Part shown: one piece after another, positions 9,843 through 55,191 of the stretch | Layout: each line of letters begins with the position of its first letter | Numbering within the stretch: position 1 is the first letter of the stretch | From: an uncultured Bacteroidota bacterium | GTDB taxonomy: Bacteria; Bacteroidota; Bacteroidia; Chitinophagales; Chitinophagaceae | DNA: 64,000 nt | Assembly (NCBI GenBank): GCA_903829015.1 | Contig: CAIKOJ010000155.1 | Coordinates: forward strand, 39,678-103,677 | Direction: 5' to 3' | Notes under the pieces: generated by a model | What the model saw: only the letters and a program-made list of their open reading frames with translations | The model's database searches: none | Told to the model about the DNA's origin: nothing | Position numbers and translations under genes: made by a program

Positions 9843-11219
9843 ATGCCCGAAAAATCTACAGTATATATGCCCTCCATACGCAGTTGCTGCCTTTATGCTT
9901 CTTCATTTTTGCTTATCCTTTTAAGCTTTGGCGGCCAAGGGCAGGTTATTACAACGATAGCAGGTGTCGGCATACATGGATATAGCGGCGACGGCGGGCC
10001 CGGCACTGCAGCCAGGCTATTTGAACCCCACGGCGTTTGTGTAGACCGTTCAGGAAACCTATATATAGCAGACTATTTCAACCATGTTGTCCGTAAGTTA
10101 GATACGGCTGGTATTATCACTACAATAGCGGGTAATGGTATTGGCTGGTTCGACGGGGATGGGGGGCCTGCAACGGCAGCGGAATTATTTTATCCTTCCT
10201 ATGTTTGCTTTGATGCAGATGAGAACCTGTTAATTTCAGACTACGGCAATCATCGTATCCGGAAAATAGACCGGTATGGGATTATCAGCACTGTTGCTGG
10301 CAATGGAACTTACGGATACAGCGGAGACGGCGGCCCTGCAACGGCAGCACAGATTTTCGATGCTGCCGGTACTTGCACAGATGCGAGTGGTAATCTGTAT
10401 ATATGTGACATTTGGAACAATGTGATACGGAAAGTGGATACAGCGGGTATTATCAGCACATTCGCAGGCACTGGCTTAGCGGGCTATAATGGCGATGGCG
10501 GCACTGCAACAAATGCACAATTAAATAACCCTGGTGGGGTATGTGTGGATACCGCAGGGAATCTATATATAGGCGACCAGCAAAACCACCGGTTTAGGAA
10601 AGTAAATACTTTGGGTATAATATCCACTTTTGCGGGCACCGGGACACCGGGTTATAACGGCGATGGTGGTCAGGCTACAGCTGCAACACTGAATGTGGCA
10701 GGGATAATACACATAGATAAATTGGGCAATTTTTATATTCTGGATTACCAAAATTTTGTTATCCGTAAAATAACGCCCAGTGGCATTATTACCACAGTAG
10801 CAGGTAACGGTACGTATGGGTACAACGGCGACAATATAGCTGCCACAGCAGCGCAAATTAATTATGCCACCGATGTGTGCTTAGATTCAGCAGGCAACTT
10901 ATACATCGCAGACCATAACAACGAGCGTATCCGCAAGGTAAGTATGCATGTAACCGGTATCAATGATATTGTTAGTCACATTGGTGCTCTTAATGTTTAC
11001 CCCAACCCAAATGATGGGAATTTTTCGGTTGAATTGCCACCGGCTATGAATGGTCAGTGCCATATTACCATCTGCAACGCAGCCGGGCGGCAGGCTAAGG
11101 AAATGTACACCCTCCTGCCAGAGGTGAAAGTAAAACTGTCTGTGCCACCCGGCTTATATATTATCACCGCGACTACAAATGACCGCAGCTATAAAGCTAA
11201 ATTCATAGTAACAAAATAA
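9843..11219 (+). CDS. NHL-repeat secreted protein with T9SS C-terminal sorting domain
   Basis: 458 aa; repeated TIAGNGxxGYSGDGGPATAA...GNLYIADxxNxxIRKVD units; C-terminal VYPNPNDGNFSVELP...PGLYIITATTNDRSYKAKFIVTK. Confidence 0.9.
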   Translation: MPEKSTVYMPSIRSCCLYASSFLLILLSFGGQGQVITTIAGVGIHGYSGDGGPGTAARLFEPHGVCVDRSGNLYIADYFNHVVRKLDTAGIITTIAGNGIGWFDGDGGPATAAELFYPSYVCFDADENLLISDYGNHRIRKIDRYGIISTVAGNGTYGYSGDGGPATAAQIFDAAGTCTDASGNLYICDIWNNVIRKVDTAGIISTFAGTGLAGYNGDGGTATNAQLNNPGGVCVDTAGNLYIGDQQNHRFRKVNTLGIISTFAGTGTPGYNGDGGQATAATLNVAGIIHIDKLGNFYILDYQNFVIRKITPSGIITTVAGNGTYGYNGDNIAATAAQINYATDVCLDSAGNLYIADHNNERIRKVSMHVTGINDIVSHIGALNVYPNPNDGNFSVELPPAMNGQCHITICNAAGRQAKEMYTLLPEVKVKLSVPPGLYIITATTNDRSYKAKFIVTK

Positions 11220-11304
11220 AGTCAGGAGTGTTTAATTGGGATTAACACGATTACTTTCGCCCAATTTTTCCGAAAATTAGATATCGCTGGTTTCAGTATA
11301 ACTA

Positions 11305-11439
11305 CTACCAATAGCGCCCGGCTCCCCGGTACTTATGCTTAGACGGCATTTTCCTATCCGTATGCACAGGGGTGTAGCAACTGCTCAGGAACGAGAGCAA
11401 TAAAACGATGGCTGTCAGTCTGACAATGGTATCCTTCAT
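11305..11439 (-). CDS. Tiny putative lipoprotein (44 aa)
   Basis: Hand-translated: MKDTIVRLTAIVLLLSFLSSCYTPVHTDRKMPSKHKYRGAGRYW*; lipobox LSSC; below ORF-track length cutoff. Confidence 0.6.
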   Translation of the reverse strand: MKDTIVRLTAIVLLLSFLSSCYTPVHTDRKMPSKHKYRGAGRYW

Positions 11440-11505
11440 ACAAGCTTAAAAATAATAAAACAATTGGTTTTTGGAATAATAGTCTACTCAGACATATTCT
11501 TTTGA

Positions 11506-13278
11506 TCAAAAGAAATCATAATCTCTTCTTGCCATATTCAGCCTCACGCCAAAATAAACATAGGTAGTGGTGAGCGGCCCGTACAACGGTCCGGTTGTGG
11601 TGTAATCTGAATTATAGACACCAGTAGTATTAATGTACTTCCGGTAGGTGCCGCCCAGATCAAGGAAAAGGTTTCTGCGAAGCTGGTAAGCGATATTCAG
11701 ATTCATAATGGTGCAGGTGGCTTTAGGCCCGTTAATGGTTTTTACGCCATACTGATGATCGGCTGTGAGATAAGGATTGAAAATATTGTTTCCATAGTTT
11801 TTACCGCCAGTATCTACACCCTGCATATAGTAAGTACCCTTAACAGACAGGTACAGGTTTTTAATAGGATTGTACCTGATCTGCCCTATGCCTTTTATAA
11901 AACCCGAACCCAATGGGTCGGCCAGTGGCTGGTTGTAGTTGGTGTAGTTGGCCATCGTGTCCTGTGCAGCATAGGTGTATGGTCTTACTACGTCTATCTC
12001 CGCCTGCAGGTCAAGGTTTTTAACCGTGAACGCATCGAAGTACTTGCAACCAAACTGTATACCCCATTTATTACCATACCATTTTTTACCACCGGTGAGT
12101 TCTTTGTACCTGAATTCGTTGAACAATATCTGTGCATAAAATTGTAAGTGTTTGGCCGCAATTGCCTTCAGGTTCATACCCAGTAAAGATTTATCTCCTG
12201 CTCCGTTGAAACGGTTGATGGCAGTAGTGAAAATGATGGGATTCAGGTAGGATAGCTCATAATGATCAGGGCGGTCAAATACTTCAGCTTCAAACAAACC
12301 TACGCTTAACCATTTGAAAGTATTTACATTCAGATAATGGATGGTTGAGTACTTGTGTGAGCGTATTGTATCGCCAATGGTTTTGTCGAACTGTGGGGTC
12401 AGCTCCAGATAAAGACATTCATAATTGAGTTTCCACACACGCGCCTGCACTTGCAGAAACGGCATGTTCGACGAATTATCGGTAAGGAAAAGGCTGGTCA
12501 TACCATCGCCAATAAAGTGCTTACCTGAGCCAAAAGTGAGGTTCACATGGTTTTTCACCGCATCGAAATTGATATAGCCGCTGGCCTGCATATAGTCGTA
12601 ATTACCGGTACTGGGGTTCAGAAAGTAGTCGGCACCCGGTACCGCCATACGCTTGCCGTCTTTTTTAACCCAGTTATTCACGAAATAGGGGAACTGCTCC
12701 TGATTGTCTACGATCGACGTATAAAAACCTAACTTCTTCCCGATCCAACCTCTGAGCTCGACACCACGGCCTGAGTAGAAAACAGTGCTTTTTGTAGCCG
12801 CCGGTGTAGGCGAATTCTGCTGGTACATAGCCACCCCACTCAACACCGGGTTAACTACCAGGAAAAAATTCTTATCCAGTACAAAATCATGTGTTTTAAT
12901 ATGAACAAGGTCGTATTGCTTTTTGTAAAAGAACTTAACCCATGGCCTACGAGAATCTATGGTCTCTTCATCCTTCGGTGCCCATTCCCCGTTCTCAGAG
13001 ATCATCTGGTTGATGTTGTATCTGTCTATAGCTGTGAGCTGACTTTTTACATCTTTCTTCGAATTGGTCGATTTGATCATTTCTAGGAAATTAACCGCAT
13101 TTCTCCTCGATTCGGGTCTGTCCCACAAAGCCAGGCTGTCACAAAGCCTGCCCGATCTGGTTTCAAGCCTGTCCAGCAGGTTGTAGTCTTCAGATCCCAG
13201 CGGAACAAAAGTGGTTTGGGCAAAACAAAGCTTAACACTCAATAATAAGAATGGAAGTAAATAAGCTTTTTTAAGCAT
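11506..13278 (-). CDS. Outer-membrane beta-barrel protein, Wzi / gliding-motility RemB-like
   Basis: 590 aa; signal peptide, barrel-like sequence, HVNLTFGSGKHFIGDGMTSLFLTDNSSNMPFLQVQARVWKLNYECLY. Confidence 0.65.
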   Translation of the reverse strand: MLKKAYLLPFLLLSVKLCFAQTTFVPLGSEDYNLLDRLETRSGRLCDSLALWDRPESRRNAVNFLEMIKSTNSKKDVKSQLTAIDRYNINQMISENGEWAPKDEETIDSRRPWVKFFYKKQYDLVHIKTHDFVLDKNFFLVVNPVLSGVAMYQQNSPTPAATKSTVFYSGRGVELRGWIGKKLGFYTSIVDNQEQFPYFVNNWVKKDGKRMAVPGADYFLNPSTGNYDYMQASGYINFDAVKNHVNLTFGSGKHFIGDGMTSLFLTDNSSNMPFLQVQARVWKLNYECLYLELTPQFDKTIGDTIRSHKYSTIHYLNVNTFKWLSVGLFEAEVFDRPDHYELSYLNPIIFTTAINRFNGAGDKSLLGMNLKAIAAKHLQFYAQILFNEFRYKELTGGKKWYGNKWGIQFGCKYFDAFTVKNLDLQAEIDVVRPYTYAAQDTMANYTNYNQPLADPLGSGFIKGIGQIRYNPIKNLYLSVKGTYYMQGVDTGGKNYGNNIFNPYLTADHQYGVKTINGPKATCTIMNLNIAYQLRRNLFLDLGGTYRKYINTTGVYNSDYTTTGPLYGPLTTTYVYFGVRLNMARRDYDFF

Positions 13279-50244: not shown

Positions 50245-50454
50245 TGGTAAAAATTGTGATTATACGCCATTGTTACGGCTTTCTCGCCCTTATTTTTAAA
50301 TATAAAACTTCGTATTATCTGAATAGCAACAGGTATTTGGGGTGATAATTTTCATGGGTAGTACACATTTGGGATTTATGGTGTATTTGTATACTGACTT
50401 GATTGCTTCCGAGCGGCGCCCTTTCACTTGCTCATCCAAAGAGGGGAGGTTACT

Positions 50455-50502
50455 GGTGATAGGAAATATACCATAATCGCGTTTCAAACGCTTTTCCGTT
50501 AG
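50455..50502 (-). repeat. Dispersed repeat X, copy 2 (inverted)
   Basis: Reverse complement CTAACGGAAAAGCGTTTGAAACGCGATTATGGTATATTTCCTATCACC; contains palindrome GCGTTTCAAACGC. Confidence 0.75.
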
Positions 50503-50597
50503 GTACTCGGCGCAGACGAGGATCAGCAAGGCAACCAAAAACAATGCCAGCGGAATAAATATCTTTCATAACTTGGCCTGAATTAATAATTATTGAA

Positions 50598-51302
50598 ATG
50601 AAAATACTGACTTGGAATTGTAATGGCGCATTCAGGAGAAAATACGAAGCAATTAATAAACTTGGTGCCGATATTCAAGTTATACAAGAATGTGAAGATC
50701 CGTTAAGAACTACGGATGAAAAGTATAAAGCGTGGGCAAAGAATTACTTATGGACTGGCGAAAATAAGAATAGAGGATTAGGTGTTTTTGCAAATGAGGG
50801 AATCCTGATTAGTGATTTGAAATGGGAAGCAGATGGTCTGAAATATTTCCTATCCTGCAGAATCAACAAAAACTTTGACTTAGTTGCGGTGTGGACTACG
50901 AGAAATAATTCAATTACATATAGATATATTGGGCAATTATGGAAATATCTTCAAATCAATAAGGCGAAAATGACAGGATGCATAATTATAGGTGATTTCA
51001 ATAGCAATAAAATTTGGGATGAACGGAAGAGGACATGTAATCATTCCCATGTTGTGAGGGAATTGGCTGATATAGGAATTTCAAGTCTCTACCATGATTA
51101 TTACAATAGTGCTCAAGGCGAGGAAATGCATCCTACATTTTACCTGCAGCGGAAAATAGATAAACCCTATCACATTGACTATATTTTTGCTTCAACAGAA
51201 ATAGTTGATAAAATAACTAATTTTGAGATAGGATTGAGGGATGAATGGTTGCAAATTAGTGATCATTTACCTGTATTGTGTGATATAATTAAAAAAATAT
51301 AA
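50598..51302 (+). CDS. Endonuclease/exonuclease/phosphatase (EEP) family nuclease
   Basis: 234 aa; MKILTWNCNGAFRRKYEAI, DIQVIQECED, CIIIGDFNSNKIWD, HIDYIFASTEI, LQISDHLPVLCDI. Confidence 0.88.
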   Translation: MKILTWNCNGAFRRKYEAINKLGADIQVIQECEDPLRTTDEKYKAWAKNYLWTGENKNRGLGVFANEGILISDLKWEADGLKYFLSCRINKNFDLVAVWTTRNNSITYRYIGQLWKYLQINKAKMTGCIIIGDFNSNKIWDERKRTCNHSHVVRELADIGISSLYHDYYNSAQGEEMHPTFYLQRKIDKPYHIDYIFASTEIVDKITNFEIGLRDEWLQISDHLPVLCDIIKKI

Positions 51303-52163
51303 ATGGCATTCGGGAAGACAATTAAGATATTTCTTATGGATGGGGATCCCAATGGACGAATGAGTTGTGAACTTTCAAATTGGACAGGGAAGGCATATAA
51401 AATACCAAGAATTAAAATTAAAGAATGCTCTGACCGCGATGACTTATCTAATACGGGGGTATACTTGCTATTCGGTAAAGACGATGAAGGGAAAGATCAA
51501 GTATATATTGGGGAGGCAGAATCAATATTAAAAAGGCTTCATCAACATTTAGTCCAGAAAGACTTTTGGAATGAAACAATCGTTTTTATTAGTAAAGATG
51601 ACAACCTAAATAAGGCTCATATAAAATATCTCGAAAACAGATTGCATAGTATTGCTACTGCAGCAAATCGATATAAAATTGAGAATTCAAGCACCCCTAC
51701 ACAATCTTCCATTTCAGAATCCGATAGAGCTGAAATGGAAGAATTTATTGAGTATATAAAAATGCTTGTAAACACCCTCGGACATAAAGTGTTTGATGAA
51801 AAACGTGAAATTAAACCCAAGCAAAAGCAAGAGATATTTTTTATTAAAGCCGCACGTGGTGCAGATTCACAGGGTGAGCCAACTTCAGAAGGGTTTGTAG
51901 TGTTCAAAGGTTCAAAAGCAGCAGGTTCAACAGTAACGTCAATTACATCGAGTTTTCAAGCATTAAGACAAAAGCTAATAATCGATGGTGTTTTGGTACA
52001 AAAGGAAGATTACCTATTGTTTCCAGATGACTTTATTTTTAGTAGTCCATCAACGGCGGCATCAATTGTTCTAGGAAGAAATGCCAATGGTTTGACAGAA
52101 TGGAAGCTAATAAATGGTACTACATTAAAAGAATATGAGACAAATGAAAAACAGCCAAGGTAA
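51303..52163 (+). CDS. GIY-YIG nuclease family protein (DUF4357-like C-terminus)
   Basis: 286 aa; GVYLLFGKDDEGKDQVYIGEAESILKRLHQHL; ATG directly follows the EEP stop codon. Confidence 0.88.
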   Translation: MAFGKTIKIFLMDGDPNGRMSCELSNWTGKAYKIPRIKIKECSDRDDLSNTGVYLLFGKDDEGKDQVYIGEAESILKRLHQHLVQKDFWNETIVFISKDDNLNKAHIKYLENRLHSIATAANRYKIENSSTPTQSSISESDRAEMEEFIEYIKMLVNTLGHKVFDEKREIKPKQKQEIFFIKAARGADSQGEPTSEGFVVFKGSKAAGSTVTSITSSFQALRQKLIIDGVLVQKEDYLLFPDDFIFSSPSTAASIVLGRNANGLTEWKLINGTTLKEYETNEKQPR

Positions 52164-52225
52164 GGTCGCCGGTTCATATATTTTCATTAATATTTCAGCT
52201 TTTGTTGTGTAATTTTCTCTCCTCT

Positions 52226-52271
52226 GGTCGAAGCGTCTACTTCGTCCTGTTATTTTGAAGTGTCCGCTTCC
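52226..52271. repeat. Double-hairpin repeat, copy 2
   Basis: GGTCGAAGCGTCTACTTCGTCC + TGTTATTTT + GAAGTGTCCGCTTCC; same layout as 40787..40833. Confidence 0.75.
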
Positions 52272-52312
52272 CCCACTGGTCCCCACTAGTCCTCATCTGT
52301 GAGGAGGATTTA

Positions 52313-52357
52313 TCGGTAAAGCGTTTGAAACGCGATTAAGGTATTTTTTCCCATCAC
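52313..52357 (+). repeat. Dispersed repeat X, copy 3
   Basis: TCGGTAAAGCGTTTGAAACGCGATTAAGGTATTTTTTCCCATCAC; inverted relative to copy 2. Confidence 0.75.
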
Positions 52358-53084
52358 AGGCCCGCACCGTCCTGTCATAGGCCGTATACGTCCTGTCATA
52401 GATTTTAAATTTTGGCATTTCCAGCCAATACACGATATTTACATAAAGCTGGCACCCATTTCCTAAACAGGAAATTTCCGGTACCAAGTTTTCCGGCAAA
52501 ACCCGCAATTCACACACAATTAATTGATTTTCAATTAATTAAGCCACTTCTGGCTTGTCTGCCGATATAGGCATGGTTTTTCCGGTACCGGAAGAAACCG
52601 GAAGAAAACCCGCAATTTGCTTCCGGCCTGTCTGCCGCTAGGCATGGCTCGCCTGCCATTAGGTATGGTTTGTGCAATACTAAAAGACTGTTTTGTATAA
52701 TGAAAGAAAATCTGTGGAATCCGAGAAAACTGAACCACCCATACCTGACAACCAATTTCAGGACTAACCATCTTGAAAATCCAAAGATCCGGAAAATCCT
52801 GATAGTGTAGAAAGTGGGGAGAAAATGGGGAATTCTTATCCACATTTCCAGTGCAAAGTGTTGATTTTCAACATTTTAATAAAAACAACACAAATAATTC
52901 CCCACCTGGGGAATTTTGAAAAATGATCCTGTAAATCCCATCAAACTCGCGACCAACTACTAACTACTATCTACTGATTCCCAATTGGGTAGTTTTTGGG
53001 AAATTTTTCCAAAACAAACTATTGATAATCAATGTTTTACTGCTTTTTACAACTTATCGCAAAAAGTGGGAAATTTTCCTTTGC

Positions 53085-53214
53085 CCGCCGTAGCTTTTCC
53101 TATTAGAAGCCATAGTTTCAACGACGGCTTCAGCGAAGGAGGGTCGCCCGCAGTATCTTTTTTTATTAACTGCCATAGTTTCAACGACGGCTGTATCGAA
53201 GGAAGGTCCGGCAT
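53085..53214. repeat. 63-bp direct repeat, two copies
   Basis: GCCATAGTTTCAACGACGGCT at 53109 and 53172, with preceding GCCCGC(C/A)GTA...TATTA also shared. Confidence 0.8.
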
Positions 53215-54546: not shown

Positions 54547-54610
54547 TTGATTAGTTGATTGGTTGGTTAGTTGATTGGTTGGTTAGTTGATTGATTGGGT
54601 GGTTGATTAG
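54544..54610. repeat. Low-complexity tandem repeat of TAGTTGATTGGTTGG-type units
   Basis: tagttgattagttgattggttggttagttgattggttggttagttgattgatt... Confidence 0.8.
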
Positions 54611-54649: not shown

Positions 54650-54949
54650 TTATCTTCTGAATTTTAGACGGGGGTTTCTTTTCGTATGAAAGACGAAAGA
54701 GATAAAAACAACTTTTTGCTTTTCTAAAATCTGATAAATAATTGTGTACGGAAAGTCCTGTACCACAGCGGCTCTGTAACTCCCTTTTTTCTTGGCATAC
54801 AGCTCGGGGGTATAAGACAGCTTATCGAATTTATTTTGAACTGCAGCTAAAAATCTTTGTCCCAGTCCTTCTGAACATTCTTCATACCATTGAAATGACT
54901 GGTTGAGTTCCAGTAATGCGTCGGGATGAAGCACTATCTGGTAAGTCAT
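54650..54949 (-). CDS. RelE/ParE-family toxin
   Basis: 99 aa; YQIVLHPDALLELNQSFQWYEECSEGLGQRFLAAV...YRAAVVQDFPYTIIYQI; overlaps antitoxin ORF by 4 bp. Confidence 0.88.
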   Translation of the reverse strand: MTYQIVLHPDALLELNQSFQWYEECSEGLGQRFLAAVQNKFDKLSYTPELYAKKKGSYRAAVVQDFPYTIIYQILEKQKVVFISFVFHTKRNPRLKFRR

Positions 54950-55191
54950 TTCTTTTTACTTTTTGAGGAAGCCATTATTTTCAATTTTGCTTCTTCCCAA
55001 GGTATGCCTTTCACCTTACCACTTTTATAATCGGCTGAGCGCCTATCCAGTTCTGCCAGAAATTCCTTGTCTTTTGACCATTCATAGTCTCCAATCTCTC
55101 CTTCAACCATCGTGAATATGGCTTTCACTTTTTTTTCATCGGCAATACGAATATATTCATATAGTTTCTGCCGTATCAATGCCGTGGTCAT
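54946..55191 (-). CDS. Putative antitoxin of RelE/ParE pair
   Basis: 81 aa; SKDKEFLAELDRRSADYKSGKVKGIPWEEAKLKI, typical addiction-module C-terminus. Confidence 0.82.
   Translation of the reverse strand: MTTALIRQKLYEYIRIADEKKVKAIFTMVEGEIGDYEWSKDKEFLAELDRRSADYKSGKVKGIPWEEAKLKIMASSKSKKK

Follow-up and report, generated by a model that had tools for sequence, protein, structure and literature searches.

Abutting EEP and GIY-YIG/DUF4357 genes in a REP-bounded insert of a Chitinophagaceae bacterium: probably two independently mobile accessory nucleases

The analysis of the window, by which we mean the whole stretch of 64,000 nucleotides under study, pointed to a horizontally acquired insert bounded by REP-like repeats in which two independently mobile accessory nucleases have probably been stacked, a reading that we favor with reasonable rather than high confidence. 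The two open reading frames abut, the ATG of the GIY-YIG gene following at the very next base after the TAA stop codon of the EEP (endonuclease/exonuclease/phosphatase) gene (51302/51303), exactly where the original prediction had placed them. The locus comprises the following features:

50598 to 51302, + strand: EEP gene, 234 aa, with an ExoIII/APE/LINE-1-endonuclease-like fold (Pfam, profile search, AlphaFold2/Foldseek)
51303 to 52163, + strand: GIY-YIG gene with a C-terminal DUF4357, 286 aa, PADLOC family PDC-S14 (PDLC04925, DUF4357, phrog_12629)
50464 to 50522, - strand: left inverted repeat, REP-like, 59 nt (model R1, 58.1 bits, match at 50472-50528, - strand)
52290 to 52348, + strand: right inverted repeat, REP-like, 59 nt (model R1, 67.5 bits, match at 52284-52340, + strand)
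50464 to 52348, no strand: insert absent from the sister genome G032 (alignment to L214, G032:C92; left edge within 50320-50480)

The locus is an insertion, accessory and horizontally variable. The closest sister genome, G032, conserves the flanking genes, with 85-89% DNA identity to the flanks of the window and about 95% identity in the isomerase protein, and lacks both the EEP and the GIY-YIG genes between them. This empty syntenic site, along with a patchy distribution, bears out the accessory character that had been proposed and indicates that the locus is not core in close relatives. The right edge of the insert is clear, as the homology to G032 resumes at the outer end of the right repeat. 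On the left side, the segment 50330-50464 aligns to G032 no better than shuffled sequences do (51 of 500 shuffles reach its score), so its homology to G032 was rejected and the left edge could be placed only within 50320-50480; the best-scoring junction joins 50476-50480 to 52344-52348. The GC content of the gene pair is 34-36%, against 42-50% in the surrounding DNA, which agrees with the AT-richness noted originally. The supposed lack of housekeeping context did not hold, since 0.4 kb to the left is the start of a gene for a SurA/PpiD-type isomerase and 1.2 kb to the right that of a gene for a PLP enzyme of Cys/Met metabolism (both by Pfam). Purifying selection acts on both genes, which alike exhibit pN values of 0.13-0.26 against saturated pS values of 0.76-0.84. 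We also observed, on the right side of the insert and ahead of the Cys/Met enzyme gene, a 63-bp tandem repeat (53083-53208; two copies, 83% identical) that is not found in G032.

The two repeats at the edges of the insert, which the original prediction did not mention, are 81% complementary over their 59 nt and belong to a widespread family. A covariance model detected this family in 33 of the 35 genomes of the genus, with 0 to 37 copies each, where all copy numbers, including those used in the enrichment estimate given below, are lower bounds with 150 candidates scored per genome. In three of these genomes (G002, G008, and G021; loci L245, L248, and L251), inverted copies enclose a Y1_Tnp gene of 184-186 aa. 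This arrangement, in combination with the dispersal of the copies, marks the family as one of REP-like elements belonging to a RAYT (IS200-like HUH transposase) system. By analogy, it probably belongs to RAYT subclass 2.6, which is rich in Bacteroidetes and has atypical REPs (PMC6006769). Structured inverted repeats around an IS200-like Y1 transposase, with dispersed copies, are thus shared between the genus of the window and the RAYT/tnpAREP REPtrons, whereas the repeats in the window frame nuclease genes and no RAYT. An integron attC-like nature was rejected because the repeats, on inspection, form two distinct hairpins and not a single long imperfect palindrome, and because RAYT genes lie between copies; a repeat specific to the EEP gene was likewise ruled out by the dispersal across the genus. 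A search for structured RNA at the locus yielded no Rfam match. A third close copy occurs in the same genome on contig C105 (L235 7335-9288, G000:C105), in a segment whose place is taken by unrelated DNA in G032.

An alternative that we regard as somewhat unlikely is that two unrelated accessory genes came together by chance at an intergenic site that tolerates insertions, with the REPs as bystanders or later arrivals. The REPs are intergenic and dispersed through nearly all genomes of the genus, and they are usually missing at other EEP and GIY-YIG loci: a REP lies within 500 bp at just 4 of the 18 loci of these genes in the genus, and no such repeats were found at the two further EEP-GIY pairs described below (L120 and L082), so the genes can move without REPs. 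Furthermore, a toxin-antitoxin pair located 2.5 kb away is likewise missing from G032, which shows that the region is variable; this pair (54650-55191) consists of a ParE toxin (PF05016) and an addiction-module antitoxin (PF09720), and its absence is precise, with positions 54599 and 55227 mapping to adjacent bases of G032. Against a mere coincidence stands the position of the inverted REP pair at the very edges of the insert. The same two-hairpin family brackets the lone EEP gene of G020 in an identical frame, within the order REP, EEP, REP, intact RAYT, and three REPs, and in the window as well as in G020 both repeats point their CACTCGTC-like heads toward the genes. Window-type repeats also surround the EEP gene of L044, which is the most similar to that of the window among the matches listed, and in G029 a REP and a truncated RAYT lie ahead of the lone GIY-YIG gene. 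Excluding the window, REPs were found within 500 bp of EEP or GIY-YIG genes at three loci against 0.08 expected from the lower-bound copy numbers (P = 9e-5 uncorrected, or 5e-3 after a fourfold correction for intergenic position).

A broader generalization, that REPs of RAYT systems can bracket and mobilize unrelated accessory nucleases as passengers, with EEP and PDC-S14 as repeated passengers in this Chitinophagaceae-like genus, is a tentative idea that we consider rather unlikely to hold. Mobile insertion cassettes are passenger genes bounded by MITEs. The window resembles them in that inverted repeats frame passenger genes without a transposase and differs in that the repeats derive from a REP family instead of an IS, with no target-site duplication established. 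REPtrons, for their part, are reported not to transpose as a unit (PMC6006769). In other regions of the genus (L244-L263), REP-like repeats often bracket single accessory genes, such as DUF5946 (L250), an AbiEii-type toxin (L258), and duplicated lipoprotein genes (L247), and a Zeta toxin is encoded near such repeats (L246).

According to the original prediction, the two genes, if they formed a stable pair, would be a candidate for an undescribed defense or DNA-processing module. Their adjacency proved rare in other genomes, an outcome that the prediction itself had named as a refutation, and the reading as a stable module is largely refuted. Among 61 relatives, EEP was detected in 15 genomes and GIY-YIG in eight (some of these matches being weak), and the genes are adjacent in the genome of the window only; one relative, G034, harbors both on different contigs. 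Across 395 genomes of the class, GIY-YIG occurs in 25, EEP in 21, and both in two including that of the window, close to the approximately 1.3 expected under independence, with adjacency again restricted to the genome of the window. A sample of 391 genomes from another order added no pair among its additional GIY-YIG loci, and the adjacency amounts to 1 in approximately 50 sampled GIY-YIG loci. In addition, a genome-wide EEP scan matched 347 relatives, of which 80 loci were studied. The GIY-YIG gene lies directly downstream, in the same order and strand, at two of these 80 other EEP loci:

L120 pair, Sphingobacteriales, from the EEP scan: gap of 6 nt between EEP and GIY-YIG; identity to the window 53% (EEP) and 79% (GIY-YIG)
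L082 pair, Maribacter, from the EEP scan: gap of 109 nt between EEP and GIY-YIG; identity to the window 53% (EEP) and 37% (GIY-YIG)

Including the window, pairing is therefore found at 3 of approximately 83 EEP loci (covering 80 of the 347 scan relatives). The distribution among the 61 relatives, the 395 class genomes, and the EEP and GIY-YIG loci led us to reject a conserved two-gene operon, and the adjacency constitutes a rare, weakly recurrent tendency. In the trees, the paired EEPs fall in three different groups and their closest relatives are mostly unpaired (one close relative, L107, stops at a contig edge), from which it follows that the pair formed at least three times. Random placement predicts approximately 0.001 for the two pairs outside the window, and the excess persists (P = 5e-4 to 2e-3) even when adjacency is raised 50-fold to allow for the clustering of accessory genes, so the genes may have a slight affinity, whether functional or mechanistic. 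In the vicinity of the L120 pair, we also found a Schlafen-group-3 helicase protein (10758-12968) that matches PDC-S14 at its N-terminus (E = 2e-7) and AbiO in one region.

These observations bear on a second alternative, a genuine two-component defense operon in which both nucleases cooperate, for example with GIY-YIG cutting modified phage DNA and EEP degrading or processing the ends. The zero gap between the genes, the shared order and strand of the L120 and L082 pairs, the repeated independent formation, and an adjacency far above the random expectation are all consistent with such an operon; since three pairs with a common gene order are more than random placement would give, some functional EEP-GIY link may exist, and this counts against the stacking of independent genes. 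The scarcity of the pairing among both EEP and GIY-YIG loci, the mostly unpaired closest relatives of every paired EEP, and a co-occurrence near independence nevertheless make a cooperating operon unlikely. A phage- or plasmid-borne pair was rejected, given that EEP has no phage match and that, on the few viral contigs where one gene occurs, the other is missing.

Catalytic motifs had been recognized in both proteins, and the active-site residues of each were invariant among its relatives. The EEP protein matched the Exo_endo_phos family (Pfam: PF03372) above the gathering score (E = 9e-7) and combines a DNase I-like fold with the N/E/D/N/D/H active site that characterizes the superfamily, the invariant residues being N7, E31, D133, N135, D194, D222, and H223. 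A profile search of solved structures matched LINE-1 endonuclease and ExoIII chains, and the AlphaFold2 model (pLDDT 89.9) had NExo, LINE-1 EN, and XthA as its top Foldseek matches (E = 2e-13 to 1e-12). No match was found in the PADLOC or PHROG models, and a search of phage and plasmid sequences returned no phage match and only seven weak plasmid matches. In other genomes, EEP genes are mostly located behind ordinary metabolic genes, including SelO, enoyl-CoA hydratase, and old yellow enzyme, with defense-like neighbors at only some loci, which weakens the defense reading for EEP. Among the matches listed (L044-L123), lone EEP genes very often come next after a gene on the same strand in unrelated contexts (at a gap of 150 nt or less in approximately 50 of 83), a placement that looks like insertion at operon ends. 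The sister genome also contains, at a different site (L038 8251-8954, G032:C77), an EEP gene disrupted by internal stops.

The metabolic neighbors, together with a fold nearest to NExo, XthA, APE1, and LINE-1 EN, are compatible with a third alternative, in which EEP would be a nuclease of DNA-repair or housekeeping type and the GIY-YIG gene merely inserted behind it. This is improbable, as the protein remains far under the cut-off of the NCBIfam exodeoxyribonuclease III equivalog (TIGR00633; 33.1 bits against 99.05) and its presence in just 21 of the 395 class genomes is at unrelated sites. The EEP of the window thus shares its fold and active-site residues with the ExoIII/APE and LINE-1-type endonucleases and differs from them as a stand-alone accessory gene of 234 aa without a reverse transcriptase, and from exodeoxyribonuclease III in scoring below its cut-offs.

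The GIY-YIG protein, by contrast with the part of the prediction that called the module undescribed, belongs to a family already cataloged, which limits the novelty to EEP and the pairing. Over residues 1-282 of 286 it matches the PADLOC model PDLC04925 (PDC-S14) at E = 8.4e-123, and is hence a full-length member of this candidate defense family, in line with the defense association suggested originally. It also matches DUF4357 (Pfam, E = 1.4e-21) and phrog_12629 (E = 2e-90), and the Pfam GIY-YIG model below its gathering score (E = 0.004). The superfamily motif is present (GVY 52-54, YIG 68-70, R78, and E111), with Y54, Y68, G70, R78, and E111 invariant among relatives. No solved-structure relative was found by sequence, and none by fold at E <= 0.001. 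Relatives occur in two phages and 56 plasmid records, all below 60% identity. PDC-S14 was predicted through guilt-by-embedding, without experimental validation, and overlaps GAO_29, which is called restriction-like in the same work (PMC10855318). The window protein shares with this family the single-gene architecture and the intact catalytic residues, and differs in that its gene lies directly behind an EEP gene. DUF4357 is also an extra domain of GmrSD type IV restriction enzymes (PMC4619093). In PD-T4-3, phages are reported to be limited by a single GIY-YIG nuclease gene (PMC12409345); the similarity is one of kind only, as the PD-T4-3 model was not among the PADLOC matches of the window protein at E <= 1. 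A defense role of the PDC-S14-family protein is plausible. Another lone GIY-YIG/DUF4357 gene (L137 1483-2358, G213) has a Y1-transposase-like gene approximately 0.5 kb downstream.

Returning to the stacking of two independently mobile nucleases, we propose that an insert of approximately 1.9 kb was acquired horizontally between two housekeeping genes, and that REP/RAYT activity or recombination between REPs probably assisted in its placement, duplication, or recombination. Most likely, the GIY-YIG/DUF4357 protein would need no partner and would cut the incoming DNA of phages or plasmids in a restriction-like manner, DUF4357 being the putative DNA-reading part, and EEP may be an ExoIII/APE-type nuclease also working on its own. 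When together, both genes would presumably share a transcript, and their products could attack the same invading DNA through nicking and end processing.

The novelty of the locus is modest, as it presents a new member of a known candidate family, PDC-S14, whose REP-bounded surroundings are unusual. What had been proposed as a module of two nucleases is in the main a pair of genes that move independently, a finding that spares effort on a false operon, and the modest recurrent EEP-GIY association remains of interest. If the passenger reading is true, the supposedly non-cargo, domesticated REP/RAYT system would be a vehicle for candidate defense genes, and the carriage of accessory genes by REP/RAYT would offer a testable route for the spread of single-gene candidate defense systems in Bacteroidota without a recognizable transposon.
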